Shown here: piece after piece, positions 13,467-46,826 of the stretch | Numbering within the stretch: position 1 is the first letter of the stretch | Layout: the number at the start of each line of letters is the position of its first letter | IMG/VR virus record: IMGVR_UViG_3300033233_000058 | Span: 1-46,826 of that record | Strand: one strand, 5' to 3' | DNA length: 46,826 bases | Source: a virus | Made by a program: the position numbers and the translations under genes | Notes under the pieces: generated by a model | Database searches by the model: none | Told to the model about the DNA's origin: nothing | What the model saw: only the letters and a program-made list of their open reading frames with translations

Positions 13467-13531
13467 CTATTCCCCGCTAAAAAAATCAATGATGTTATTA
13501 AAAGTGTGGCGTAAATAAATGCCTTAATCAT
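13463..13531 (-). CDS. Tiny 22-residue hydrophobic protein
   Basis: A 23-codon frame (MIKAFIYATLLITSLIFLAG) whose ATG overlaps the Wzy-like stop (ATGA) and whose TGA overlaps the next ATG. It would form one membrane helix. The double overlap and the position are the only support. It could also just be a translation-coupling linker. Confidence 0.35.
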   Translation of the reverse strand: MIKAFIYATLLITSLIFLAGNR

Positions 13532-14679
13532 GCTTCCCTCATTATCAAAGCGTAGCAGACAATTCCGACAATTGCCATAAGCGACAAGTGAAAAGGAAAA
13601 TTTCCAAGAGCATTAGAACACACTGCGATAAAAAGTCCAGCAGTAATTATGTTGCATTTTTTATCCAGGATTCGTTGTAAAGCAATGTAAAGGAGGATGC
13701 CTATTATGAACAAGCCTAATGCTCCAAAAGCTATATACGCATCGATTATCTCGTTATGGGCCTGATTAAATATAGGGGCAGGAACACCGTTCTCAGTATT
13801 GAATCTATCGGCAAGAAATCCAAGACCATTCCCAAATAGGATGGAACCAATATCAGTTTTCCATTCCAACATTTTAGGCCATACATCCAGGCGGCGGTTT
13901 GAGAAAAAGAAGTTTCCACCCTTATTGCAAAAAAATAACACCGTCAAAGATATGACACTCAGTGCTGAATATACAGCTATAATTGATTTTTTAGAAAGGC
14001 ATCTCAAAGACAAAATAGTGACTGCCCCACAGAATGCCGAAAACCACGCCATCGAGCTATCACAAATCCACATCCCGTATAGTGCAAAAGGAATCATCCA
14101 CAGTGTTTTTTTTCTTAAAATTGCTGGAAAGGTTATTCCTATCACACACGCGGATAGTGATATGTTGGCCAGAGGCCCCCAAATATCATTCATGTTTTTT
14201 GAAATAAGATGTGTCCCATGGGCATCATTTATTTTTGCCTGGCCGTTTGTCATAATGTAAACAATATAATTAAAAATATTCACCACATGTAAATCAAAAA
14301 TAACCCATAAGGAACTTACCAGACACACAACCGAGAAAGCATTATGCATGAACCGATCTGAATCTTCACTGAATCGGGTTATCATCTGACAGCAAATAAT
14401 CATCCCTATATTGAAAAGCATCCACTGTAGAAAAACATTTGGAGAGAATTGGTTGTACTGATTCACAAATGAAAAAACCGAAAGGAATGAAAAACCCAAA
14501 ATAACACTTAAGTTTTTAACTCTACCAATTCCAAAAAACATAACTGAAAAAAAGCATGATGCCATTAAGAGCATGTCTTTTGAATATCTGACATCAAAAA
14601 AATGGTTAAATTTTACGAAAAAAAGGAGCAGTATTATTACCGCTCCCCAAAAAAAGTTAAATGAAAGTTTCATATTCAT
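13528..14679 (-). CDS. Wzy/O-antigen-ligase-like polytopic membrane protein
   Basis: The ATG at 14679 overlaps the previous stop as ATGA and gives a 383-residue protein with about ten hydrophobic segments. The C-terminal part carries the Wzy_C/WaaL-like features NRRLDVW (261-267), LFGNGLGFL (281-289) and QAHNE (306-310) followed by an AFGALGL segment. In bacteria such proteins polymerise or transfer O-antigen or other surface polysaccharide in the inner membrane. In a phage the obvious role is changing the host surface and blocking superinfection, as known for O-antigen polymerases of P22-, epsilon15- and D3-like phages. The substrate cannot be told. Confidence 0.75.
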   Translation of the reverse strand: MNMKLSFNFFWGAVIILLLFFVKFNHFFDVRYSKDMLLMASCFFSVMFFGIGRVKNLSVILGFSFLSVFSFVNQYNQFSPNVFLQWMLFNIGMIICCQMITRFSEDSDRFMHNAFSVVCLVSSLWVIFDLHVVNIFNYIVYIMTNGQAKINDAHGTHLISKNMNDIWGPLANISLSACVIGITFPAILRKKTLWMIPFALYGMWICDSSMAWFSAFCGAVTILSLRCLSKKSIIAVYSALSVISLTVLFFCNKGGNFFFSNRRLDVWPKMLEWKTDIGSILFGNGLGFLADRFNTENGVPAPIFNQAHNEIIDAYIAFGALGLFIIGILLYIALQRILDKKCNIITAGLFIAVCSNALGNFPFHLSLMAIVGIVCYALIMREA

Positions 14680-14960
14680 ACTGGAGGCGTAGGCTTTGGA
14701 AGTGATGTTTTTACAGACAAGCAATCACTATAATATTTTGCCAATTGAGTTTGTCCTTCAGCCGCTAATTCTTCAATGCCTGAATTTATTTTAACTTGAG
14801 CATCGGCAAAATCCTCTATTGGAGGGTATCTCTTAATTCTTCTGCTATAACAAGAAGCCAATTGAGCACTATACGCATCTTGCTCATTTTCAAAATCCAT
14901 CATGACTGGAATAAAATCATCTACATCTGCATTATATTTATAAATTTCTATTTGAATCAT
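14676..14960 (-). CDS. Small fibre-associated protein, possible assembly or XkdW-like protein
   Basis: A 94-residue protein with the layout of a widespread phage family next to tail-fibre genes: an aromatic acidic N-terminus, RYPPIEDFADAQ in the middle and VKTSLPKP at the end (Y-P-P-I then K-x-x-x-P-K-P). The family resembles XkdW-like proteins; its job is not well known but is linked to fibre assembly or host range. The ribosome binding site GGGAGTAATTT is good. Confidence 0.6.
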   Translation of the reverse strand: MIQIEIYKYNADVDDFIPVMMDFENEQDAYSAQLASCYSRRIKRYPPIEDFADAQVKINSGIEELAAEGQTQLAKYYSDCLSVKTSLPKPTPPV

Positions 14961-14963
14961 AAA

Positions 14964-16136
14964 TTACTCCCACCAGCCCACGACTGGAAATTCTATATTT
15001 ATCGTAATTTGACTATTTGCTGGAAAATTAAAAGGTGATGTTTTTGTTACAGTCGCGGCTGGGGAAACACTAGCCTGATATATATAAGTTGAAGTAGAGG
15101 TTCTATATAATGCCATAGCCGCATATACGTCTCCTGTTGTGCCATTATATAAATTTCCCATTCCCATAGGTTCACTTCCATCTGTAGCATTAGTCATTTT
15201 TGCTGTGTTCATTGTATCAGGAAATGTTAAAAACGAAAAACCTCCCGTTGTGGTTGGGTTCGTTGAAAATTTAGCATTTAATCTATATTTTACTTTATCC
15301 CCGTGCCTACTTTTAAATCCAGTAACGGTGCAATTATCAAATGCCGCCGTAACTCCTGTAAACGATACCTCCGTATTTGGAATGTGATGATTTAAAAGAA
15401 CCCAAACCGAACCTGTGCAAAGAAGTTTTACACTCTCTTGGTATGTATAAAGAACAATTCCAGTAGAACCAGAAATTCCATTAACAGTTTCGCCCGACGC
15501 CGCACCTTTTATTGTTAAGGTTGAATCTCCAGAAATAGAATCTATTATTTCAATTATTCTATTTGTATTATTTGCAGCGGTAGGTAATGTTATTGTTTTA
15601 CCCGTAACCGTCATTGATATATTGGTGTATCCGTCATTATCCAGAACTGTGTAATCATTAGACTTTGAAGTATAACTATATGCCGCCGCTGGAGGTGCTA
15701 TCCATGAAGTCACCGCTGAACCGTTAGTAGATAAAACATATCCTGCACTTCCATCAGTTATTGGAAGAGTATATGTTTTACTTGCCGTTGCGCTGGCACT
15801 TCCTTGAATACCAGTCGTAAAACTTCCACTGGATAATTTTAAAACTCCTGAAAAATAACCATCTTTAAATTTTTGAGATGAAGACCCCAAATCAAGAGAC
15901 GATTGAGGAAGGAATATTTTACCATCTGTGATCGATGCTGAAAGCTGTTCGTTTATACTTCCAGACGAAACAAAAACTTTTGTGTCATTAAGAAGGGCAG
16001 ATGCTGTTGCCCCGGCGGAGGTAAGCTCGGACAACGTTTTGAAATCTTGATCTTGAAGCCTTCCTCTCGCATCAACTTGAAATGAAATCAGAAGAGTGAT
16101 AAGTGAAACCAAGAAAACAATAAAAATCTTTTTCAT
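14964..16136 (-). CDS. Secreted fibre-like protein with Sec signal peptide
   Basis: A 390-residue protein with an N-terminal signal (KKIFIVFLVSLITLLISF, possible cleavage after VDA near residue 23). The mature part has tail-fibre style repeats rich in Ser, Gly and Thr, with KTYTLPITDG, a beta-strand trunk and VTGKTITLPTAA plus a STLTIKGAA stem that recurs in fibre proteins. The C-terminal 150 residues form a globular domain with KVKYRLNAKF. Phage fibres are normally made without a signal peptide, so export would be unusual. The ribosome binding site AAGAGGAAGAT precedes the ATG. Confidence 0.7.
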   Translation of the reverse strand: MKKIFIVFLVSLITLLISFQVDARGRLQDQDFKTLSELTSAGATASALLNDTKVFVSSGSINEQLSASITDGKIFLPQSSLDLGSSSQKFKDGYFSGVLKLSSGSFTTGIQGSASATASKTYTLPITDGSAGYVLSTNGSAVTSWIAPPAAAYSYTSKSNDYTVLDNDGYTNISMTVTGKTITLPTAANNTNRIIEIIDSISGDSTLTIKGAASGETVNGISGSTGIVLYTYQESVKLLCTGSVWVLLNHHIPNTEVSFTGVTAAFDNCTVTGFKSRHGDKVKYRLNAKFSTNPTTTGGFSFLTFPDTMNTAKMTNATDGSEPMGMGNLYNGTTGDVYAAMALYRTSTSTYIYQASVSPAATVTKTSPFNFPANSQITINIEFPVVGWWE

Positions 16137-16145
16137 ATCTTCCTC

Positions 16146-16520
16146 TTATTTTAGATAAGTCGCATATAGTGTCTGTCCCAATGCTGGTGCAGTATTCATA
16201 TTAATTGTTGTTCCTGAAATTGTATAGTCGTAAATTGAACCTTGATATAAAAAACCACCGTCTAAAAACAATTTAACTGAGTCGGTTGCCGTGGGAGTAT
16301 TGCTTAAAGAAAATGAAGTATTTGAACCATTTATGGAACCACTTGGTATTTGTTGAACAGGTGTTCCAGATGATAACGCAAGAGTTCCAGATGACGATGG
16401 AAGCGTATATGTCTTACTATGATCTGAAGACTTTAAAAAATCCGCATCGACCGTTCTGCCTGTAGAGGCAAAAGAAAAAGTTGCCCAACTTAGAATTATA
16501 AGAATTAAAAATCTATTCAT
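16146..16520 (-). CDS. Small secreted fibre-like protein with Sec signal peptide
   Basis: This start (16520, MNRFLILIILSWATFSFA) gives a 124-residue protein with a signal and cleavage near SFA/ST. The mature part carries KTYTLPSSSG and a module SGSINGSNTSFSLSNTP-x-x-x-LFLDG ending in TAPALGQTLYATYL. The same module appears twice in the 506-residue fibre gene (17553-19073). It is probably a small adhesion or collar subunit made of a single copy of the repeat. Confidence 0.65.
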   Translation of the reverse strand: MNRFLILIILSWATFSFASTGRTVDADFLKSSDHSKTYTLPSSSGTLALSSGTPVQQIPSGSINGSNTSFSLSNTPTATDSVKLFLDGGFLYQGSIYDYTISGTTINMNTAPALGQTLYATYLK

Positions 16521-16546
16521 AAATCCACCATTGGGCAACATCAAAA

Positions 16547-17551
16547 TTATCTCCTGTAACTCTCAACCCATAATGACTGTGCGAAATCACAATGTAAACC
16601 TAAAGTGCTATCTTTTGCACCAATCCAATCACCATTAAGCGACAAACCGCTTCCGACAAGATTTGCTTGATCTTGAAGTTTTACAGTGTTTGTATCGCTT
16701 GTCCCATATATTTCTAAAAATTGTCCGTCTGCTGCGCAAGCCGTAACTGAAGGTGTTGCTGTAATAATTACTGCTCCTGCGTTACCCACAACCCAAACGT
16801 CATTATCAAACGAAACGCTTGTAAGGGATATGCCCGATCCTGCCGTGACTGATTCTGGAGAAGCTGATCCACCATTGAGTGAAGGTGATACGCTAGGAAC
16901 TGGTGACCATTGAAGGCCTGAAGCTTGTCCGGAAGCTGCTGTAAGAACATATCCGTTTGCGCCAACTCCCAATGCTGTATAAGATGCCGAACCAGTAGCG
17001 ACAAGAATTTCACCTTTAACTGCATAATCAGAAACCTTTACTTGGGCATCATTTGTAACTGCGCTTAGACCAACATCACTTTTTGTAACCGTGACATCGG
17101 ATGTAAGAGCATGACCGTTAACCTGTCTTGTATCTGGAACTGCCGTGAATCCCAAAGCTGGTTGTTTAGAATTGAATGTGCTCCAATCTGCTGCACTAAG
17201 AGCACCAGCAGCGCTTGAGCTTGCAATCCCTAATGAAAGCTGTTGACCTATAAGAGATAAGCCATTAGCTGTTCCAAGAGTTACATCTCCAGTATTAGTT
17301 CCACTCAGTGCGCTTCCCGCGATTGCCCCTGTTGGAATATTTGAAAATGTGTTATCAGCACCGCTCATTGTTTTGTTTTTGAGCACATCGCTTGTTTCTT
17401 TGCCAACTAAAGTATCAGTGGCCAGAGGAACAGTTAACGTGTAGGCACCGTTCGTGATAAACTTACCGTTGAGATACCTGTCCGCAGATGCGTGTACTGG
17501 CAACATTGCCAACATAAAAATAGTCACTAAAATAACATACATAAATTTCAT
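16547..17551 (-). CDS. Secreted fibre-like protein with Sec signal peptide
   Basis: The ATG at 17551 (MKFMYVILVTIFMLAMLPVH) follows AAGGAGG and is preferred to an upstream ATG. The signal ends near VHA/SA. The 334-residue product contains classical tail-fibre text: SGTNTGDVTLGTANG, LSAADWSTFNSKQ, VNGHALTSDVTV. The last ~100 residues form a beta domain ending in WVESYRR, similar in layout to the C-terminal domain of the neighbouring fibre. It lies in an operon of fibre genes. Confidence 0.7.
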   Translation of the reverse strand: MKFMYVILVTIFMLAMLPVHASADRYLNGKFITNGAYTLTVPLATDTLVGKETSDVLKNKTMSGADNTFSNIPTGAIAGSALSGTNTGDVTLGTANGLSLIGQQLSLGIASSSAAGALSAADWSTFNSKQPALGFTAVPDTRQVNGHALTSDVTVTKSDVGLSAVTNDAQVKVSDYAVKGEILVATGSASYTALGVGANGYVLTAASGQASGLQWSPVPSVSPSLNGGSASPESVTAGSGISLTSVSFDNDVWVVGNAGAVIITATPSVTACAADGQFLEIYGTSDTNTVKLQDQANLVGSGLSLNGDWIGAKDSTLGLHCDFAQSLWVESYRR

Positions 17552-17552
17552 A

Positions 17553-19073
17553 CTAATTCCTCCTTGATATTTCAAACCAACTTATTCCATTCCAGGAATA
17601 AATTATGGCTTGATTATTATTTAATAAAACAGAACCGTTTTGTGAAGTTCCAGAACCGTCATCTATTGTAATTGTGTCCACTAAATCTGTCCCGCATAAA
17701 ATCAACTCTTGTCCAACAACCGTTCCTGCCGATATGGACACATTTATATTTCCACCGTTTGATTTTAGATATCTTATTTGCCTTTGATCTGCGCTGGGAG
17801 TTATTAAACCTGACATTACTACAGGTGCAGAAGGAGATCCATATTGTGTAAGGCCACCAGCAACACCAGGTGCGGAAATCTGTATTTCCGTAGCGGTTTC
17901 AATTATATTTATTCCAGATGCAGCTTTTATGCTTTTAAATTGTGCTACTCCAGAAACTAGACTTTCAAAAACTCCATGTCCTGTTCCTAAATTTAAAAAT
18001 GAATTTACAGAGCTTGGAGGTGTTGCAACTGTATATGGATTATAAAGATAAAAAACATAAATTGATTGTCCCAATTGTGGAATAGATCCGGGTTCAAATT
18101 TGATTGAATCTCCTGCTATATTTTGAATCAAACTCCACTCGGTAGCTTCTACCATTACGCCGTCGATAAAAACCAATGTTGAATCTTGATCTGCTGGAAG
18201 TCCTACAAGGTTGAAAGTGTCGTTAATTCCATTAATAGTACCTGTAGGAGTTTCTTGTTTCCCAGAAATTGGATTTATGCTTGATAATGCTTTTACAACA
18301 TACCAAGTGTAAGGCCTTTGCCCTAATGCCGGAGCAGTAGTAAACGTAACTGTCTGGCCAACCATTGTGTAATCTGTTGATAGCTCACTGTCTATTCCAT
18401 CTTGAAAAATTAAAACGCTTTGGTTATCAACTGGAACTAATGAAACAGTGAAAACTTTATTTGATCCATCAACTGTTCCTATTAGTGCTTCTTGTTTTAT
18501 TTTTGGATATTTAACCGTATCTGGTGTTCCAAGTTCTCTTATAGATAAATCAAGAGTACATTGTGTTCCAAGTGTTTCCAATGCCGGAACCTGTATGCCT
18601 GAAAGTATTATATCTTGAGGATTTTTTGCCGGATACGATGGAGCAGGACTTGCCGTTCCTGGGATTATAAGGAGGTCATAATCATCATGTAAGTTTAAAT
18701 TTATTGTGGTAATTGGATCTGAAGGCTTTGGAACTGGAGTGTCTCCAGTTTGTTTGTATCTCAAAACTAAAAGATCCCATCTTGGATTCGTATTATCTGA
18801 TGTTGGAATTGTAAAATTTGCAGGGCCGTTTTCTATGGCCGTAAACATCCCATGATAATCATAAGCAATACCATTTCCAACTGTTCCACCTAAAGATGAT
18901 CCACTTAACGTTATTGGAAATGGATTTGGATATGTGGTTGTAGAAAGAACGCCTTCTCCGAAAAAAGAAAGAGCGTATTCTCCTAAAATAGTAGACATGC
19001 CTTGAAGCGTGTAATCAAGGTCGTATTTATCAACCAGCTTTCTGGATAATTCTAACCAATTTCGTTGAAGCAT
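17553..19073 (-). CDS. Large fibre/baseplate protein with repeated domains
   Basis: A 506-residue protein right after the gp48-type gene, the place of a tail fibre or baseplate appendage. It lacks a signal peptide. The N-terminal ~190 residues resemble phage proteins that link fibre to baseplate. Two related modules follow (near 203-262, with GTVDGSNKVFTV and LIFQDG, and near 275-345, with GTINGINDTFNL and VFIDG), then a C-terminal beta domain ending in ISWFEISRRN. The module is shared with the gene at 16146-16520. Confidence 0.7.
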   Translation of the reverse strand: MLQRNWLELSRKLVDKYDLDYTLQGMSTILGEYALSFFGEGVLSTTTYPNPFPITLSGSSLGGTVGNGIAYDYHGMFTAIENGPANFTIPTSDNTNPRWDLLVLRYKQTGDTPVPKPSDPITTINLNLHDDYDLLIIPGTASPAPSYPAKNPQDIILSGIQVPALETLGTQCTLDLSIRELGTPDTVKYPKIKQEALIGTVDGSNKVFTVSLVPVDNQSVLIFQDGIDSELSTDYTMVGQTVTFTTAPALGQRPYTWYVVKALSSINPISGKQETPTGTINGINDTFNLVGLPADQDSTLVFIDGVMVEATEWSLIQNIAGDSIKFEPGSIPQLGQSIYVFYLYNPYTVATPPSSVNSFLNLGTGHGVFESLVSGVAQFKSIKAASGINIIETATEIQISAPGVAGGLTQYGSPSAPVVMSGLITPSADQRQIRYLKSNGGNINVSISAGTVVGQELILCGTDLVDTITIDDGSGTSQNGSVLLNNNQAIIYSWNGISWFEISRRN

Positions 19074-19122: not shown

Positions 19123-19863
19123 TTAAATTGGAGGCCTAACCATATTATTTCTGACAATATGAGTGCTTCTAGCTGGTTCAAGTGATGTCAATTGTTTATC
19201 TAAAATGGCCAATGTTTGAGCATCTGCAACACCGTAAATCCAAACTTCGTAAGTATATGCGGTTTTTTCTATTTCATGCATCTGATCTTCAGTTATACCC
19301 GCCGCAACATAATCTCTACTGCAACTTAATGGTGTTATTCCAATACCTCTTCCCGATCCAAGAAGAGGATCTATAAAAGCTAAAAACGTATCTAGGCCCA
19401 ATTGTGAATAATCAAGAACCCAAGATCCAAATGTTACCCCGTTAAATTGTCCGATATATGGAAAGATATCAAATTCTAATCCAACCGCATCAAGTATTCC
19501 GTGAATGACATTGGATATGGCAGGAAGACTTATCCCTCCTATGGCCCTCCACTTAGATAAAAGATTCTGCTGCCTTTGATTATATGTTAAAGATGAATCC
19601 TGAACTGATGCAAATAACTCTTTTTCCCATTTTGCAAGGCCATCTGGAGTTACGGTTGATATAAATTTATCTCTATAAATATTTTGCAAACTCAAACATA
19701 TATCAGAGAAAATTTTAGCGTGTGCCCTAAGCTCTGATGATGAATAACTTCTTTTTTCATAGTCTGAATTATCTGCTCTGTCGGTTGAATATAATCCATC
19801 AGGTAATTCTGCAAAAATTAAATCAAGAAATTCTTCGGTATTTAAAAACTTTGGACTTGTCAT
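19123..19863 (-). CDS. Mu gp48-like tail protein (DUF2313 type)
   Basis: The 246-residue protein occupies the gp48 position after the gp47-type gene, with a TAATG overlap. It has the family features of DUF2313: a helical N-terminal half with EKRSYSSSELRAHAK, and a C-terminal half with LFASVQDSSLTYNQRQQ followed by a domain ending in IVRNNMVRPP. It connects the baseplate to the fibres. The assignment rests on both order and sequence. Confidence 0.75.
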   Translation of the reverse strand: MTSPKFLNTEEFLDLIFAELPDGLYSTDRADNSDYEKRSYSSSELRAHAKIFSDICLSLQNIYRDKFISTVTPDGLAKWEKELFASVQDSSLTYNQRQQNLLSKWRAIGGISLPAISNVIHGILDAVGLEFDIFPYIGQFNGVTFGSWVLDYSQLGLDTFLAFIDPLLGSGRGIGITPLSCSRDYVAAGITEDQMHEIEKTAYTYEVWIYGVADAQTLAILDKQLTSLEPARSTHIVRNNMVRPPI

Positions 19864-21089
19864 TATAAACCCAATACCACGGTCAGTGTTCCTGGTGCTG
19901 CCAATTGACTCTCTGTTAATGCCTTATTCCAATTCGGTGAATCTAATTTTTGACATTGCCTATCTGCCAAAATTGGAATCTTTCCCTCATATGTTCCAGA
20001 AATAGGATCTCTAACGGAACTTAACCATACATCCAAACCTTCCTCTATGTCTCCTGCTGTAACAAAACCATTTGTAAAACCAGGAACATCTCTACCACCT
20101 ACTGGAAGCTTGTAAAGAACTCTTGAAATTTCTCTTTCAATTAATTGTTGAACTGTAAGATTTAATGGATTGTTTACAGGATCAGAAGGAACACTTGTTA
20201 GTAATAATCCTTGGGCCAGAACCACATTAACGGCAATATCGACATTTACCTCAGTTGGTGCAAATACCCCAGGGCAATCAGTAAGAGGAACATGTTGATT
20301 ATAATATTGCTGAACAATATTTAATATAGTTGGACTTGGAATCCTAATTATTGGTTCACCGTTTGTTATTGCTGTGTCTATATCCGTTGTGCCTGTTGTA
20401 ATATAAACATCAACCGTTCCAAGGCCTCTTCCAAATCTTCTTATTAGTGCTGACCTTACCGATGGATTTGCTTCAAATGCAAATCTAGGATAATCAATTT
20501 CATTTCCACCCGATGGAGGGTTTTGTTTTTTTGAAAGTATTCTTGCCCTATATGAATCATCTGATTCAATGTCAGATCCATCTGTAATATCCTTTTTTAT
20601 ATCAGCAATGGTTGTTACGTTTGCCGGAGGTGAAACAATTGTCAAAACATCAGGAGATGCTACGTTTCCAATCTGTCCAGCAACATCGCATAAAACTTCT
20701 ACATCTAAAAATCCACCTGATATTGTTCCACCAGTAGTGTTTGTGTACATAATATTCGTTGCTGTATATAAGAATGTAAGACTTCCAACTCCAATGGCTA
20801 TTCCATTGGTTCCATATATTCTAACCTGAACACCTATCGATTGTGTTGCTGGTTGTTTGTTTATTCCTAGATCAGATCCCGCAAGTGCCAAAGATTCAGG
20901 CCTCATAGAGGAGACAAAACTATCTTTATCAACCTTGTCTTGATCTCCATATAAACCTGAAACTATTCCAGAAAAAGTTTTTCCTCTAATAACAAAATCA
21001 GAATTCTGATCATTGGTATTTATGGAAGGTTTTATCGATTTTAATATTTTCTGGTATTGATCATTAATTTGAGAAGGTGTTGGAAACAT
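19863..21089 (-). CDS. Baseplate J-like protein, Mu gp47 type
   Basis: A ~408-residue protein with baseplate J features: FVIRGKTFSGIVSGLYG near the N-terminus, VDVYITTGT, then VNVDIAVNVVLAQG and EREISRVLYKLPVGG in the C-terminal half. gp47 proteins form the outer baseplate wedge. The start at 21089 (ATG) is preferred; a GTG at 21098 in the same frame lies inside the end of the gp46-type gene. Order matches Mu (gp46, gp47, gp48). Confidence 0.85.
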   Translation of the reverse strand: MFPTPSQINDQYQKILKSIKPSINTNDQNSDFVIRGKTFSGIVSGLYGDQDKVDKDSFVSSMRPESLALAGSDLGINKQPATQSIGVQVRIYGTNGIAIGVGSLTFLYTATNIMYTNTTGGTISGGFLDVEVLCDVAGQIGNVASPDVLTIVSPPANVTTIADIKKDITDGSDIESDDSYRARILSKKQNPPSGGNEIDYPRFAFEANPSVRSALIRRFGRGLGTVDVYITTGTTDIDTAITNGEPIIRIPSPTILNIVQQYYNQHVPLTDCPGVFAPTEVNVDIAVNVVLAQGLLLTSVPSDPVNNPLNLTVQQLIEREISRVLYKLPVGGRDVPGFTNGFVTAGDIEEGLDVWLSSVRDPISGTYEGKIPILADRQCQKLDSPNWNKALTESQLAAPGTLTVVLGL

Positions 21090-21090
21090 G

Positions 21091-21465
21091 TTATACACTC
21101 ACAAAGTTTAAATTATTAGATAACTGATTTTCCGATTCCACAACGCTTATATTATTATTTGTCCCGGTGGGAGTTGTTTCTATATTTGTTATCGAAACAG
21201 ATTTTGCTTTTCCCGTCTGAACAACTTGTCGATTAATCGCATCTCTCGCGTATGCTGCAAAGTTTTGATCTATGGATGAATTTCTTTTTAAACCTTCCAT
21301 TGTATAAATCAGAGATCCTTGGCCAATGCTTCCATAAAGATATTTTCCCATAGGAATAAGGAGGGCATAATAACTTGCCTCAAGAACCCTATCGCTACCT
21401 AGTGGAGATCCGTTTTTAAAAACGTAATCTTTTTTAACAGGATCAATTTGCAAATTTTGCGACAT
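21091..21465 (-). CDS. Baseplate W/gp25-like protein, Mu gp46 type
   Basis: A 124-residue protein with the gp46/gpW layout: DPVKKDYVFKNGSP near the N-terminus, LLIPMGKYLYGSI, IDQNFAAYARDAI in the middle and a beta-rich tail. Proteins of this family form the inner wedge of the baseplate, next to gp47. It shares bases with its neighbours by TAATG, and has an AAAGGA ribosome binding site. Confidence 0.8.
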   Translation of the reverse strand: MSQNLQIDPVKKDYVFKNGSPLGSDRVLEASYYALLIPMGKYLYGSIGQGSLIYTMEGLKRNSSIDQNFAAYARDAINRQVVQTGKAKSVSITNIETTPTGTNNNISVVESENQLSNNLNFVSV

Positions 21466-35135: not shown

Positions 35136-35329
35136 TTTTCCTCATAAAGAATAGTGTTTTTATATTTGTGATAACCATTCAAACATACCTCTATACTTCC
35201 AGCCTCTATATTAAAAGGATTTTTGAGCATAAGCTTTGATGGATAATATAATTCACCTTTATTATTCTGCAATAAGTCAGCGGGCATCATTCCTATGTTC
35301 CCATCTTTAAATTTTATCAGATATCTCAT
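35132..35329 (-). CDS. Hypothetical 65-residue protein between portal and Mu F
   Basis: A small beta-rich protein (MRYLIKFKDGNIGMMPAD) linked to both neighbours by ATGA overlaps. It has a KDGNIGMMPAD start and no known domain. Position suggests a small head-related or regulatory role. The support is the double overlap and coding character. Confidence 0.6.
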   Translation of the reverse strand: MRYLIKFKDGNIGMMPADLLQNNKGELYYPSKLMLKNPFNIEAGSIEVCLNGYHKYKNTILYEEK

Positions 35330-37959
35330 ACTCTATAATTTGGTGGAAGTTTATCTTCCTGATCTTCTGGAATATTTTTTTCTACTGATGGGGCACTGGC
35401 ATCATTGGGATCTGTGGAATTTTCTTCACCGAATCCCTGTATGGCCTGAGTTTTTTTCATTCCCATTTTTTCTCTGACGTGATCCAAATCAATCTGGCTA
35501 TCTGGAGACATATATCCTGTTTCTGTAAGACCTCTGTAAATGTTAGTAAGCTTCTCCATTATTTCTGGATCATACTCTTCTAGAACAAACTCTCCGAATC
35601 CGTGTTTTTCCCAAACGTGTTTTGGGAAATTGTATGAAACAACTTTAGAAATAAACTGATCAAGTAGCTCTTGCTTGTATGTTTTTAATTTACCATCTAT
35701 AAGACTATTAAATATTTTGTGGTGCTCTTGTCCTAACGCGTATGATCCGACTCCATCTCCCGAACTCATGGCCAGAGGTGGAATCAAAAGTGACCTCATT
35801 TCTGCACCATTAAAATAATCAATGGCCTCTTTAAAAATATTCATGTCACCTTGGACTTGAACAGCTTCTATATCGTATGTCTCACCTTTTCTTCCAGGGA
35901 AAACTATGAATGAAGAGTTATGAATAGTCTTCATAGTTTCTGCCATTGCAACATCGGCACGTCCTAAACCTTCTTCGGTTCTACCGTCTCCATTCTGCAT
36001 TGTTCGAACTGTATCGTTAGGAGCAGCATAGCCTACAATTAGAGGTGTTCCTTTTCTATCCGCTGCCACAACCCACATTTTTAGGAATGCATCTTTTAAC
36101 ACCCAATTTTTATAAGCACGACGTAAAATACTATTATGAGTTGGTATCAATGATTTTCCTGCTAAAAACAAATGGCTAGGAGAATTGACTTCAATACAAA
36201 CAGTTTCTCCCTTAGGCCTTTTTTCTATATTTCTAATATAATGATATGCCTTGTGATTTTTATCATTTATCAAAAGTCTTTCTGCCTTCCTCTTTAATTT
36301 AAAAGCTTTTAATTTGTATGGAGTAAATCGAACAGTCCAAGTATCTTTTAATCTTCTATCTCCCCAATATCTCTTTTTTTCTTTCACTGTGCAATAATTT
36401 CCCAATGATCTTATTAAAAAAGAAACTCCATCAACTAAATTTTTATTTGTGTTTACAAATTCTGCATTTCCACCTTTTCCCACATATCCATCTTTCCATT
36501 TGTAACCACTAGGGGTTATATATCCATCTGAATCCATTAAACCTTGAAGTAATTCTGTTCTTTGATCTTCTGATGCCAGAAGATATTCTTCTGGAATATG
36601 CTTATTATTTATAAGACCTAAAATTCTTAATTGTTTTTGATAATTTGACAATATACCAAAATATCTACCCTTGTTATCCTTGGAACCGTTCTGTCTAGTT
36701 TCCGTTGTTTCATACCCACTATTATTTAACTCTTTTTTTAATTCTTCAACATCATCCATATGTGTGGATATTCTAGCTCCTGAACTGTTTCCATCTCCTA
36801 ACCATTGGCCTAAAAGATATGGAGGTATTAATAATCCTCTTTTTGGAAGTTTTAAATTATCAGACAACTTTATAGCTAGAACTTCATTAACCTTTTTATC
36901 TAAAGATATCATATGATTATATATTTCTTTAGTAGTTAAAAGTTTTCCTTTGCGTTTTTTTTGTCTTTCATAACTTGTTTTTGTTACCGGCCATTGGTGA
37001 TTTTCATCTGCATCAATATAACTTCCATCAGAAAAATGAACTCTATAAATATCTCTGTTTTTCCATATTTCAGATTTTCCGGTTATTTGACATAATTTTC
37101 CATTATCATCAAAAACATAATCATTTATGGTTAAATTTCCCATTGTTGACCAACCATTTAATGTCAACATTGGAGTATCAAGAGACAAAGCACGGCCATA
37201 AGCATTACCAAACTTGCCAGTAGAACTAGATCGCAAGTGTATAACTTTGTCTTTAGGTATTTTGACCGTGAGGTATGTGAGGTCGGCAGCGATACGCACA
37301 GGATAAGGATAATCACCAATAGAAGCAAAAAGATCTGGTCGAAATCCGTCAAGATCACCGTTGGAGATTCCGTACATATAAGAGTTGAAAAAGGTATTGT
37401 GAAAACGTTGATATTGATAAACTCCATCAGGTAATACCTCTCCATGTCTATTAACTGCAAAAACAACAGTCAGTGGTGGATAAGTTACAAGTTTTTGAGG
37501 AACGAATGCAGGAGCACCGTCAAAATTACTTTTATATGTCCAAACTTGTTCAGTCACAGAAAACCCAGACCATTCCGCCGAAAGCATCTCATCTAAATTT
37601 TCGTGCCAAGATCCTTCCATCTGCATTAATGCCCTTCGGACGAATTTTTGAACTTCAGGAACCTCATGCTTATAATCACCAAACCTGGCAATCATAGCGA
37701 GATTTAAAAAATCAATTCCCGCTCCAATTGTCTCATCTGTATCTAGCATCCGTTTATAAGTTTCGACCGAAACCGTGGATGGGTTAGCTATAAATCTAGA
37801 TAGTGATCCATATAGTTGAGGAACTGTGGTTCCCTCTTGAACTTGTTCGGTTTGAAGCCTTGTAAGCTCATCGTATCTATTTCTAAGTTCTTCTTTTATG
37901 TTAGGAGGAACGTCATCGATCCAATCCAATAGAGATCCACTTCCTTTTATAGCACCCAT
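35326..37959 (-). CDS. Portal protein (Mu gp29-like, DUF935 type) interrupted by an intein
   Basis: The ATG at 37959 has AAGGA six bases before it; an ATG at 37965 is too close to the site. The N-terminal extein (residues 1-256) and C-terminal extein (610 on) together fit a DUF935 portal: NPSTVSVETYKRMLDTDETIG near 60-80 and AYGRSILRRAYKNWVLKDAF across the splice. The intein covers residues 257-609. The mature portal would have 524 residues and form the dodecameric DNA channel at one capsid vertex. The C-terminal ~40 residues are Asp/Glu/Pro-rich. It must be spliced to work. Confidence 0.85.
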   Translation of the reverse strand: MGAIKGSGSLLDWIDDVPPNIKEELRNRYDELTRLQTEQVQEGTTVPQLYGSLSRFIANPSTVSVETYKRMLDTDETIGAGIDFLNLAMIARFGDYKHEVPEVQKFVRRALMQMEGSWHENLDEMLSAEWSGFSVTEQVWTYKSNFDGAPAFVPQKLVTYPPLTVVFAVNRHGEVLPDGVYQYQRFHNTFFNSYMYGISNGDLDGFRPDLFASIGDYPYPVRIAADLTYLTVKIPKDKVIHLRSSSTGKFGNAYGRALSLDTPMLTLNGWSTMGNLTINDYVFDDNGKLCQITGKSEIWKNRDIYRVHFSDGSYIDADENHQWPVTKTSYERQKKRKGKLLTTKEIYNHMISLDKKVNEVLAIKLSDNLKLPKRGLLIPPYLLGQWLGDGNSSGARISTHMDDVEELKKELNNSGYETTETRQNGSKDNKGRYFGILSNYQKQLRILGLINNKHIPEEYLLASEDQRTELLQGLMDSDGYITPSGYKWKDGYVGKGGNAEFVNTNKNLVDGVSFLIRSLGNYCTVKEKKRYWGDRRLKDTWTVRFTPYKLKAFKLKRKAERLLINDKNHKAYHYIRNIEKRPKGETVCIEVNSPSHLFLAGKSLIPTHNSILRRAYKNWVLKDAFLKMWVVAADRKGTPLIVGYAAPNDTVRTMQNGDGRTEEGLGRADVAMAETMKTIHNSSFIVFPGRKGETYDIEAVQVQGDMNIFKEAIDYFNGAEMRSLLIPPLAMSSGDGVGSYALGQEHHKIFNSLIDGKLKTYKQELLDQFISKVVSYNFPKHVWEKHGFGEFVLEEYDPEIMEKLTNIYRGLTETGYMSPDSQIDLDHVREKMGMKKTQAIQGFGEENSTDPNDASAPSVEKNIPEDQEDKLPPNYRV
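36133..37191 (-). mobile_element. Intein with LAGLIDADG endonuclease inside the portal gene
   Basis: A 353-residue in-frame insertion. It begins with A-L-S-L-D-T-P (Ala first residue) and contains the N-terminal splicing block GWSTMGNLTIND, block B VHFSDGSYIDADENHQW, then two LAGLIDADG-like motifs (YLLGQWLGDGN and LLQGLMDSDGY), and ends SPSHLFLAGKSLIPTHN before Ser. Ala as first residue and final Asn with Ser as +1 fit class 2 or 3-type splicing, in which the N-terminal junction is attacked directly. The LAGLIDADG motifs indicate a homing endonuclease that could still cut intein-free portal genes. The insertion lies at a conserved YGR-S motif. Confidence 0.88.
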
Positions 37960-37968
37960 CACCATTCC

Positions 37969-38490
37969 TTAATAAAGATCATTCCAAGCTGTCCCGTTAT
38001 AGCCTTGATGCTTAGAAGTTGTTGTATTGTAAATTAACATCCCAACCGCTGAATCTGTAGCAATCGCATCACGCTGAGTTGATGTTAATGCTGGAGGAAA
38101 AAATGCTGCACTAACTGACAGTGTTGTTACCACTCCGATGCTAGATGAAACAAACTGACTTGCGAATGGTGCTGGTGTTCTTGAAACAGGATCTATTGAA
38201 ACTAACCCAAAAACAGGAACCACTGATCCAGATGCAAGAGTATATGTTCCAACATCTTCAAGTCCTGTAACTGAAGAATAGCTAGGAGTTGCATAATAAC
38301 TTGGATTCAAATTTGTAACTCCAGAAGAATCAGGAAGAACTACTCCCAACATCGGAACTCGTTTTGATCCATCTTGAACGAATGAAAAACCGTAATGGTT
38401 AATTGATGGACTTTTCTTTGCGGAGTCAACCGATATGGTTGCAAACGCGAAAGTGGAAAACAAAAAAACTAACAGCACTAAAAATTTCAT
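37969..38490 (-). CDS. Small secreted fibre-like protein with Sec signal peptide
   Basis: A 173-residue protein with signal MKFLVLLVFLFSTFAFA (cleavage likely after AFA). The C-terminal motif SAVGMLIYNTTTSKHQGYNG then W-x-D-L-Y is the typical ending of many phage tail-fibre-like proteins. It lies between the portal gene and a small structural gene rather than with the tail genes. The ribosome binding site AAGGAGTTGTAAG is good. It may be exported and later join the virion or host surface. Confidence 0.65.
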   Translation of the reverse strand: MKFLVLLVFLFSTFAFATISVDSAKKSPSINHYGFSFVQDGSKRVPMLGVVLPDSSGVTNLNPSYYATPSYSSVTGLEDVGTYTLASGSVVPVFGLVSIDPVSRTPAPFASQFVSSSIGVVTTLSVSAAFFPPALTSTQRDAIATDSAVGMLIYNTTTSKHQGYNGTAWNDLY

Positions 38491-38942: not shown

Positions 38943-40979
38943 CTAGTAACTCAATGTTGCAAGACCTATTTGCTTCTTAGCTCCACCCGCTGTACTTAAG
39001 GCTGAATAGTACATAAAGATTGTATGGTTGTTATCATCAACAACGGTTGGTGTGTATGTCCTTGCATTACGATATGAAGGTGCTCCGGTGATTGTGAATA
39101 TAGGATTAGATGCCCATTTCGTAAAATTTAAACTATCTAGCGATGTTGCATATCCAATCCCTTCATTCGCTCCGTTAATACCTCCCGAATACCATGCGTG
39201 AACTCCAGAAGCATCTTTTAACAACCCGACGTATGTTGCATATTTTTGATCCCACCCGCTCCCACTGTATGGAATAACCGGAGCAGAACCGTAAACATGC
39301 CAAAATTTTCCATCAATGGAATAAGCAGCGGCGGTTGCCTCTTGGGTTCCCGTACTTACATCGTAATACATTGCATAGGTGTAATCGAATGGATATGTAC
39401 CTATGTTTTTTGCAAAAGGCTGAAAAAATATTTTTGATGGCCCATTGCTTGCACCATTCCATTGGCCTCCAACACATGTTATAAGCTGAGCAGATGGATC
39501 TTGGGTAATTGTTTGATCATTCACCCAAGTCAAACCGTCTGCTGATTCAGCATATCCAAATCCAGAAATACAAGTTCCCGAACCTGATTTCCAATAATAA
39601 ATTTTGTATCTAATATCCGAAACGGTGCAAGACGGTGATCCGAAACAACCAGAATCATAAACAACCTGATTGTGATAACCATCCGAAGAAATTCCAGAAA
39701 TAGCAATAGGAGTTGTCCATGTGTAGCCATCTACCGATGTTGAATTATATTCTGCTGTTCCGCCATTTCCAAACCACATTTTAAACTTAGGCCCACCAGG
39801 AGTTCCGAAAGAAAATTGATCGTATATAACTGAAGGATAATAAGCATTGTACGAACTAGTTGCTATGACTATTCCTTGATCTACAAAGTTTGTATAGTTA
39901 GATCTGGCCTGAGGTAAAGATGTTAGGGCATAAATTTGGTTTGAACCATTAATTGCCAGAGTTGAATTATCAACATTGACATTCATTACATATCCGTTAA
40001 GTGATAATCCTTGGCCTACATTAGGAATAGCAGGCCCACCAAATTGAACCCATTGAGATAGATCATTTGAATATGTATAACTTTGTCCAGAATGATCAGA
40101 GTTTGAATTTTCAGTAGAAAATACTGCCCAATTATTTTGTGGTGATAAAAATGTATAAGTGTATGAACCAGAAGCACCGCCGTTAACGATTGCTATTTTG
40201 TCACCTTGTCCAATAATTGAACCTCCAAGAGGTGCATCTTTATCCTGCAATTCAACTCCAAAGCTATCGCCGGATGCTACAGGTCTACCGTATAGATCTT
40301 TCCAGGAACCTCCATGTAGTTGAACCGCTGCTCCTTGATAAAAAGGTGCCCAATCTCCAGTTGGAGATGCGCATTGTATGATAAACACCACACTATGATA
40401 ATCTCCAAGTGGTGGAGCACAGAGGCTATCATCTGCTAAATCCGGGTCACTTATGGGATTTTGCCAAATAAGTCCAGTCAGAAGTGAATCTAGTTGTGTT
40501 TTAGTTACAACATCATTTGGAGATGCTCCAGGGCCTACATTTGAAATTAAATTTCCACCCATACTAATAGCACCGGACATGACTCCACCGGACGTATTAA
40601 GCTTTGAATTTAACTCCGACTGAAGATCGGCCTGAGCAGATAAGGTTCCGCTTATCACTCCCCATGAAGGTGGAAGTATTGGAGATACATTTCCATTTCC
40701 ATCTGTAGAATAAAGAACTGATGCAGGATAAAGTTTATTATCAGCACCCTGAAGATACATCTTTCCTGTATTAGGTGGAACAATGATTGTGTCATCAACG
40801 GGATTGTTTGAGTTTATAATTTTAAGATTACCAGATCCGTCTGTTGAATAAGCAACGGTCAAAGGCATTAGGTTCCCACCATTGTCTTTGAAATATGCAC
40901 TTCCCGATTGACTTGCAACAATGATGTTATCTGAAGCGATAGCGGAAAATGCTATGAGAAATAGAATTAGGTATTTCAT
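38943..40979 (-). CDS. Large secreted fibre-like protein with beta-propeller domain
   Basis: A 678-residue protein with signal MKYLILFLIAFSAIA. After it come two related ~35-residue repeats (AYSTDGSGNLK and LYSTDGNGNVS), a fibre linker (SMGGNLISNVGPGASPNDVV), a beta domain (KDLYGRPVASGDSFGVEL), and from about residue 355 repeated blades with Y-x-x-S-x-D-G-x-x-W motifs (SVDGYTWTTPIA, ESADGLTWVND, SIDGKFWHVYG, TSLDSLNFTKW). The blades match GH43/sialidase-like five-bladed propellers, which bind or cut glycans. No catalytic residues can be assigned by eye. It starts in an ATGA overlap. Confidence 0.7.
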   Translation of the reverse strand: MKYLILFLIAFSAIASDNIIVASQSGSAYFKDNGGNLMPLTVAYSTDGSGNLKIINSNNPVDDTIIVPPNTGKMYLQGADNKLYPASVLYSTDGNGNVSPILPPSWGVISGTLSAQADLQSELNSKLNTSGGVMSGAISMGGNLISNVGPGASPNDVVTKTQLDSLLTGLIWQNPISDPDLADDSLCAPPLGDYHSVVFIIQCASPTGDWAPFYQGAAVQLHGGSWKDLYGRPVASGDSFGVELQDKDAPLGGSIIGQGDKIAIVNGGASGSYTYTFLSPQNNWAVFSTENSNSDHSGQSYTYSNDLSQWVQFGGPAIPNVGQGLSLNGYVMNVNVDNSTLAINGSNQIYALTSLPQARSNYTNFVDQGIVIATSSYNAYYPSVIYDQFSFGTPGGPKFKMWFGNGGTAEYNSTSVDGYTWTTPIAISGISSDGYHNQVVYDSGCFGSPSCTVSDIRYKIYYWKSGSGTCISGFGYAESADGLTWVNDQTITQDPSAQLITCVGGQWNGASNGPSKIFFQPFAKNIGTYPFDYTYAMYYDVSTGTQEATAAAYSIDGKFWHVYGSAPVIPYSGSGWDQKYATYVGLLKDASGVHAWYSGGINGANEGIGYATSLDSLNFTKWASNPIFTITGAPSYRNARTYTPTVVDDNNHTIFMYYSALSTAGGAKKQIGLATLSY

Positions 40980-45206: not shown

Positions 45207-45511
<305 letters not shown>

Positions 45512-45524
<13 letters not shown>

Positions 45525-46394: not shown

Positions 46395-46826
46395 TTATTC
46401 TCCTTTAACCAAATTCATTCCAGTTTTAATTAATGTCATATAGTCTTTGTAATATTTTTCATTTAACCCCATTTCATTGGCCTGTTTTTTTGTTATTTTC
46501 AAAACTTCCTTTCTTGTGAAAAGTTTGCATCCAACTGAAACATTTTGTGGAGTTATTGTTATATTAAATTTAAATGATAATACATAATTAACAATAGAAT
46601 AAATATCTTTCACCCGCGCCTCACCGGACACCCGCGCCGAACCGGACACCCATGCCGAATCGGACACCCATGCCTCACCGTACACCCATGCCTCACCGTA
46701 CACCCATGCCTCACCGTACACCCGCGCCGAACCGGACACCCGCGCCGAACCGTACACCCGCGCCGAACCGTACACCCGCGCCTCACCGTACACCCATGCC
46801 TCACCGAACACCAATGCCGAACCGGA
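46395..46826 (-). CDS. Hexapeptide-repeat protein, C-terminal part (continues from base 1)
   Basis: The frame is open at base 46826 and runs to a stop at 46397-46395. It begins with about twelve six-residue repeats (pattern V-Y-G-E/S-A-R/W) that form a left-handed beta-helix, and ends with a ~70-residue domain containing TITPQNVSVGCKLFTRKEVL, typical for the end of YdcK-like proteins. The ATG is on the other side of the junction, at 202. See the first entry for the joined frame. Confidence 0.75.
   Translation of the reverse strand, partial: SGSALVFGEAWVYGEARVYGSARVYGSARVSGSARVYGEAWVYGEAWVYGEAWVSDSAWVSGSARVSGEARVKDIYSIVNYVLSFKFNITITPQNVSVGCKLFTRKEVLKITKKQANEMGLNEKYYKDYMTLIKTGMNLVKGE
46612..46826. 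repeat. 18-bp repeat array encoding the hexapeptide repeats
   Basis: Imperfect copies of an 18-base unit (GGTGAGGCGCGGGTGTAC-like on the minus strand) fill this stretch and also bases 1-80. Both window ends lie in it. Short-read assembly can break or shorten such arrays. Confidence 0.85.

Follow-up and report, generated by a model that had tools for sequence, protein, structure and literature searches.

In the usual view, the particles of tailed phages are finished inside the cytoplasm. The mosaic adhesive trimer (MAT) fibres of Bdellovibrio bacteriovorus are host-encoded trimeric fibres that carry a signal peptide and are displayed on the cell; they have a conserved ~130-aa beta-rich N-terminal domain, and 13 of 21 have an S74 chaperone (PMC10769870). 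Bdellovibrio phage phi1422 (JQ177062) is a cultured lytic phage (PMC3391216); we found no virion proteomics for it in that paper. In its genome, we noted that a plain tail fibre (gp67) is directly followed by gp68, a fibre-like protein with a signal peptide. The gp68 protein (614 aa, annotated as hypothetical) begins with the signal MKFMIAFIIALFSVTMATA, has 8 cysteines after this signal, and was not matched in sequence by any other phage record. Beyond phi1422, we found no other named phage with signal-peptide fibres and, with incomplete coverage of the literature, no report of secreted tail-fibre subunits. Automatic annotation, either as a plain tail fibre or as a hypothetical protein, conceals the secretion signal.

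Here, we describe three fibre-like genes with predicted Sec signal peptides (SP1, SP2, and SP3) in an uncultured virus with a G+C content of 0.37 (IMG/VR record IMGVR_UViG_3300033233_000058). The whole stretch of 46,826 nucleotides was analyzed and is referred to as the window. As in phi1422, a fibre-like protein with a signal peptide comes after a plain tail fibre in the window phage, and the two phages have a related primase, helicase, and recombinase. By contrast, phi1422 has a single exported fibre gene instead of three, and its tail genes are not closely related to those of the window.

Signal-peptide fibre genes in the tail operon

The window phage is contractile-tailed, encoding a portal, a major head protein, a tail sheath, baseplate wedge and hub proteins, and a Mu gp48-like protein; its main structural genes lie on the minus strand. 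The adjoining Mu gp48-like gene puts the SP cassette in the tail operon, and the gene order after gp48 is X1, SP1, SP2, and SP3 (Table 1). SP1–SP3 share with virion tail fibres a position in the tail operon downstream of the baseplate genes, and homology and synteny with the fibre proteins of other phages. However, they have a Sec signal, which is absent from virion fibres that are made and assembled in the cytoplasm.

Table 1. Positions of the fibre cassette and associated genes in the window.
Feature	Coordinates	Strand	Properties and matches
Second locus gene a, signal peptide, fibre-like	37969..38490	-	PHROG tail fiber 3e-7
Second locus gene b, signal peptide, 678 aa	38943..40979	-	PHROG tail protein 8e-9
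Baseplate J-like wedge protein	19863..21098	-	PHROG baseplate wedge 6e-38; 60% identical to L110
Mu gp48-like baseplate protein	19123..19863	-	Pfam PF10076 4.3e-10
X1, proximal fibre without signal peptide	17553..19073	-	C-terminal beta-sandwich, Phage_depo_C 7.3e-5
SP1	16547..17551	-	Signal peptide 1-23; docking-tag-like mature N-terminus; fibre repeat; C-terminal beta-sandwich
SP2	16146..16538 (alternative start 16520)	-	Signal peptide + ~100 aa; PHROG tail fiber
SP3	14964..16136	-	Signal peptide 1-23, then module RGRLQDQDFKTLSEL..LLNDTKVFV
Small protein without signal peptide, 3' of SP3	14676..14960	-	tblastn 39%, 7e-8

The minus-strand starts are at 17551 (SP1), 16538 or 16520 (SP2), and 16136 (SP3); the coordinates in a preliminary description of this locus were correct except for the SP2 start. 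The tail-fibre-like content reported there holds for SP1 and SP2, which match PHROG tail fiber (2.6e-7 for SP1). SP3 had no library match, and its fibre-like status comes from its homologues at the fibre position in other phages. The fibre repeat of SP1 is GTNTGDVTLGTANGL..DWSTFNSK, its C-terminal beta-sandwich is homologous to that of X1, and SP3 is presumed to be the fibre tip.

Shine-Dalgarno-like sites were found 5' of each signal-peptide methionine: AAGGAGG for SP1, AGGAG for SP2 (start at 16538), and AGAGGAAG for SP3. The N-termini, with the predicted cleavage site marked by a caret, are MKFMYVILVTIFMLAMLPVHASA^DRYLNG (SP1), MNRFLILIILSWATFSFA^STGRTVDADF (SP2), and MKKIFIVFLVSLITLLISFQVDA^RGRLQDQDF (SP3). 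Signal peptides were called by an in-house heuristic (not SignalP) that requires a basic n-region, a hydrophobic core, and an A-x-A-like cleavage site. All three N-termini were positive, with scores of 13.2 (SP1), 11.8 (SP2), and 14.5 (SP3); the same heuristic gave 9.6–11.9 for OmpA, PelB, MalE, PhoA, DsbA, and Bla. As a control, 41 E. coli K-12 proteins encoded in one stretch were scored, and four reached at least 10: YacH, YacC, and YadE, which have signal-like N-termini, and the inner-membrane protein Gcd. None of the cytosolic proteins among the 41 did so, and among 64 related fibre proteins without signals, none was positive. Alternative cytoplasmic starts right after the cleavage sites were searched for by eye in the sequence, and none was seen. 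The N-termini, SD-like sites, and heuristic scores, together with conservation in relatives (see below), bear out the earlier claim that all three genes carry signal peptides.

Elsewhere in this fibre class, signal peptides are seldom seen (3 of 139 full-length homologues), in agreement with the earlier remark that they are unexpected in fibres. Of the 66 5'-complete viral ORFs that the SP1 fibre motif retrieved (L008 being counted apart), 64 had no signal peptide, and neither did 72 of 73 ORFs in a second scan.

Other features of the window were noted by the way. Just 3' of the fibre cassette, 13528–14724 encodes a polytopic membrane protein with a weak match, under the Pfam cut-off, to Wzy_C (6.4e-5), which is of the O-antigen ligase/polymerase type. 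The ORF at 45207–45524 consists almost entirely of GSGSGYGDGSG-type repeats, and that at 46395–46814, near the window end, has hexapeptide-like repeats (VYGSARVSGSA) N-terminally.

Counterparts, relatives, and host

An X1-X2-X3-X4 series without signals was found downstream of the tape-measure gene in 13 phages (L094, L095, L099, L100, L102–L105, L113, L114, L116, L119, and L121), in the same order as X1-SP1-SP2-SP3. This series shares gene order, position, and the N-terminal tag with the cassette, but has no signal peptides on X1–X4 and fewer cysteines. The SP2 set matched the X3 set with an hhalign probability of 99.8 (E 1e-28); judged by this profile comparison, SP2 is an orthologue of the X3 fibre protein (~82 aa). 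X4 begins with MAGKLQNEDFKT or MGRLQDQDFKS, which is the segment right behind the predicted SP3 cleavage site, and the SP3 N-module is 72% identical to an L095 protein that starts with MGRLQDQDFK and has no signal. The module RGRLQDQDFKTLSEL..LLNDTKVFV of SP3 is likewise the extreme N-terminus of signal-less phage fibres. In both classes, the N-terminal segment is at the extreme N-terminus, either behind the methionine or behind the predicted cleavage site. Given the orthology of SP2 and X3 and the start of X4, the signal peptide looks like an addition before an otherwise ordinary N-terminus. By sequence comparison, its cleavage would expose a segment equivalent to the post-methionine one of signal-less fibre proteins. 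The probable correspondence of SP1 to X2 is based on weaker evidence, namely position and a similar short N-terminal motif. A homologue of the small protein 3' of SP3 is located after X4 in the signal-less phage L102/L115, and this protein is possibly a fibre helper.

The distribution of signals is polar: each upstream fibre gene that could be seen is without a signal, and the exported genes come downstream of it. Beyond the cassette, examples are phi1422 gp67/gp68, L062, L100, L106, and L120. The switch falls after X1 in the window, L008, L097, L098, and L107–L110, after X3 in L120 and, with X4 alone of the series exported, in L106, after X4 in L100, and after gp67 in phi1422. The signal-peptide protein of L100 (L100:10649-12133) lies directly 3' of a signal-less X4, and the export boundary can therefore fall beyond X4. 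A tree of the SP3/X4 module required at least six signal changes, as did trees with shuffled labels, and since its support is poor, gains and losses of signals cannot be counted from it.

Secretion signals on the outer part of a fibre-gene series were found in the window phage and in a dozen distantly related phages, phi1422 among them. Five of these (L008, L097, L108, L109, and L110) have SP1-SP2-SP3 in full and retain the signal on each of the three, and the G+C content of cassette carriers spans 0.37 to 0.65. On L008 (50.8 kb contig, G+C 0.65), gp48, X1, SP1, SP2, and SP3 are in the identical order, with signals on the last three, and its SP1 is 48% identical to that of the window (tblastn). 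L110 (48.8 kb contig) has baseplate genes that are up to 60% identical to those of the window. Longer exported-fibre arrays are found on L098 (160 kb contig) and L107 (175 kb contig), and single or partial cases on L062, L096, L100, L106, L120, and L129. L129 also has a second, more complex array. In L062, a viral contig unlike the others, a signal-peptide fibre (L062:2963-5578) follows signal-less tail genes and is possibly an independent case. After the lysis region of L008 (L008:8442-10764), we noted by eye glycosyltransferase-, methyltransferase-, and dioxygenase-like ORFs.

Searches of named phages and plasmids with SP1, SP3, and a concatenated module query returned no homologue. Viral-contig scans with the baseplate J protein and with 38943–40979 returned no relatives, and a scan with the terminase returned one distant locus. 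We also considered a Myxococcota host as a reason for the high G+C content of L008. The SP3 module was not found in 195 Myxococcota genomes, which speaks against this explanation, although weakly, as the scan had no positive genome.

The window primase and helicase were both top-ranked against phi1422 among 50,697 phage records, at about 27–32% identity, although other phages are close to phi1422 in this ranking and the primase bit score of one of them is higher. Three more early genes of the window match phi1422. The two top ranks of primase and helicase favour, but do not prove, a Bdellovibrio-like host for the window phage. The Bdellovibrio connection drawn in the preliminary description thus gains independent backing from these two rankings, the three early genes, and phi1422 gp68.

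Cysteines, docking tags, and portal-side genes

Exported proteins have 9.4 cysteines per 1000 aa after the signal (n = 30), compared to 1.9 in the fibre proteins without signals from these phages (n = 12) and 4.4 in X2–X4 of signal-less phages. An even number of cysteines was found in 21 of the 25 cysteine-containing exported proteins (binomial p 0.0005, indicative only, since the sequences are related), compared to 9 of 17 X2–X4 proteins from signal-less phages. In the C-terminal domain of SP1, Cys272 and Cys321 are both present in five phages, both absent in three, and never single; the pair is missing from the paralogous X1 domain in 8/8 phages. The cysteine pattern fits disulphides that would be made in an oxidizing compartment.

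Within-phage matching of the SP1 and SP2 tags was 0.42 versus 0.22 (permutation p 5e-5), largely owing to two tag clades. Both this and the cysteine statistics were drawn from related phages and partly reflect the two clades. Such matching would be expected if both tags dock on one kind of domain, common to X1 and SP1. The pairing of X1 and SP1 C-domains within phages was weakly above chance (p 0.026). A domain similar to the C-terminal beta-sandwich of phage depolymerases (PF25692; tailspike Solidus gp83, PDB 24qj) was found at the X1 C-terminus, with a weak likeness at the C-termini of SP1 and SP3 (SP3 versus 24qj, E 0.021). Unlike SP1 and SP3, tailspikes normally have no signal peptide. Structure prediction had been proposed in the preliminary description; the AlphaFold model of SP1 was poor (mean pLDDT 44), and Foldseek with this model found weak matches, none at E <0.001.

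Signal-peptide genes are also found between the portal and the terminase (37969–38490 and 38943–40979). The product of 38943..40979 has six cysteines after the signal and is possibly a head fibre. Portal-adjacent signal-peptide genes are also present in L110 (L205:13633-16593, 986 aa) and L008 (L090:16712-17767, 351 aa), which points to a second exported locus that is conserved. We noted that the Mu-type portal gene of the window (35326–37965) has an insert with a LAGLIDADG-like domain, intein-like in look, which is absent from the L110 portal (L205:10846-12399).

Possible roles of the exported fibres

Conserved fibre genes with Sec signals imply either that the virion is partly assembled beyond the cytoplasm or that the host surface is re-dressed by phage fibres; the cassette carriers share little else. 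We favour, with a probability of roughly 0.45, the explanation that SP1–SP3 are distal tail-fibre subunits that are exported, oxidized outside the cytoplasm, and joined to virions at or after lysis. The signals and their conservation, the shared gene order, the equivalent N-termini, the polarity, and the cysteines are sequence observations that speak for it, as does the failure to recognize a surface anchor; export, oxidation, docking, and incorporation into virions are inferred. Against it stands the small protein at 14676–14960, the possible fibre helper, which has no signal peptide. The Sec system would carry SP1–SP3 into the periplasm, where their disulphides would form. The N-terminal tag of each subunit would then bind the C-terminal domain of the one before it (SP3 to SP2, SP2 to SP1), and the SP1 tag would dock, at or after lysis, on the C-terminal domain of baseplate-borne X1, completing the fibre outside the cytoplasm. 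The products of the portal-side genes (37969 and 38943) may be head fibres that are handled like the exported tail-fibre subunits. Late joining of an exported fibre is plausible since some tail fibres and tailspikes are attachable to particles in vitro; nevertheless, we know of no mechanism that would bring exported tips to virions ahead of their dilution at lysis. A broader version is slightly more tentative: a recurrent route in tailed phages whereby the distal part of the tail fibre, and perhaps also a head fibre, is Sec-exported, oxidized in the periplasm, and attached extracellularly to virions that are otherwise complete, the exported proteins being a possible source of MATs.

The preliminary description proposed that the phage alters the surface of its host, and this stands as the main rival reading, a serious one, albeit less probable than joining to virions. 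Fibres displayed on an infected or lysogenic host in the manner of MATs might mask receptors (superinfection exclusion), prevent progeny-debris sticking, or alter adhesion. The signal peptides are consistent with such a role, as are C-termini like those of phage depolymerases (PF25692 in X1, 24qj with SP3), the host-encoded fibres of Bdellovibrio, the Wzy_C-like membrane protein just downstream of the cassette, and the glycosyltransferase-like genes after the cassette in L008. However, SP1–SP3 lack the lipobox that would be expected of lipoprotein receptor-blocking exclusion proteins of the T5 Llp type; no match to a YadA-type C-terminal anchor, the mark of trimeric autotransporter adhesins, was found in window proteins; and Pfam scans of the exported fibres found no surface domain. 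The retained N-terminal segment and the strict distal polarity also argue against display, and receptor masking leaves the portal-side second exported gene unexplained. Given the place of the cassette in the tail operon and its synteny with fibre genes that lack signals, we regard a role in the virion as no less likely than surface conversion.

The virion and surface routes are compatible, and exported fibres that coat the host first and join virions later would agree with all the sequence evidence; we consider this dual use improbable, as nothing speaks for it positively past the evidence for each part. It is more improbable still that SP1–SP3 are soluble decoys that bind free host receptor or rival phages and have no role on the virion or the surface: signal peptides without anchors would suit decoys, but the conserved N-terminal tag, the tag matching, and the distal polarity would be left unexplained. 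Lastly, although the predictor used is a heuristic, we reject non-functional hydrophobic N-termini, arising from mis-chosen starts or by chance, as very unlikely because the signals are retained in 30 proteins across G+C contents of 0.37–0.65, SD sites precede the signal methionines, and the cysteine pattern accompanies them.

Whether distal fibre subunits join the virion or the surface, the answer touches receptor binding, superinfection, and the origin of the prey-recognition fibres of Bdellovibrio, and phi1422, being cultured, makes the question testable. If the extracellular route is true, assembly of a tailed-phage virion ends outside the cell. Compared to MAT fibres, no S74 chaperone domain was found in the exported fibres by Pfam scans, as is also the case for the NS74 MAT members, and SP1–SP3 had no sequence match to solved MAT chains. 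The region after the signal in SP1–SP3 is a phage N-terminal tag or module. MAT fibres are host-encoded and have an adhesive tip, whereas SP1–SP3 are phage-encoded in a tail operon. Nonetheless, SP1–SP3 have the Sec signal of MAT fibres, and both consist of a signal peptide followed by a phage-fibre-like protein; exported phage fibres, if true, could be a source of host surface fibres such as the MATs of Bdellovibrio.
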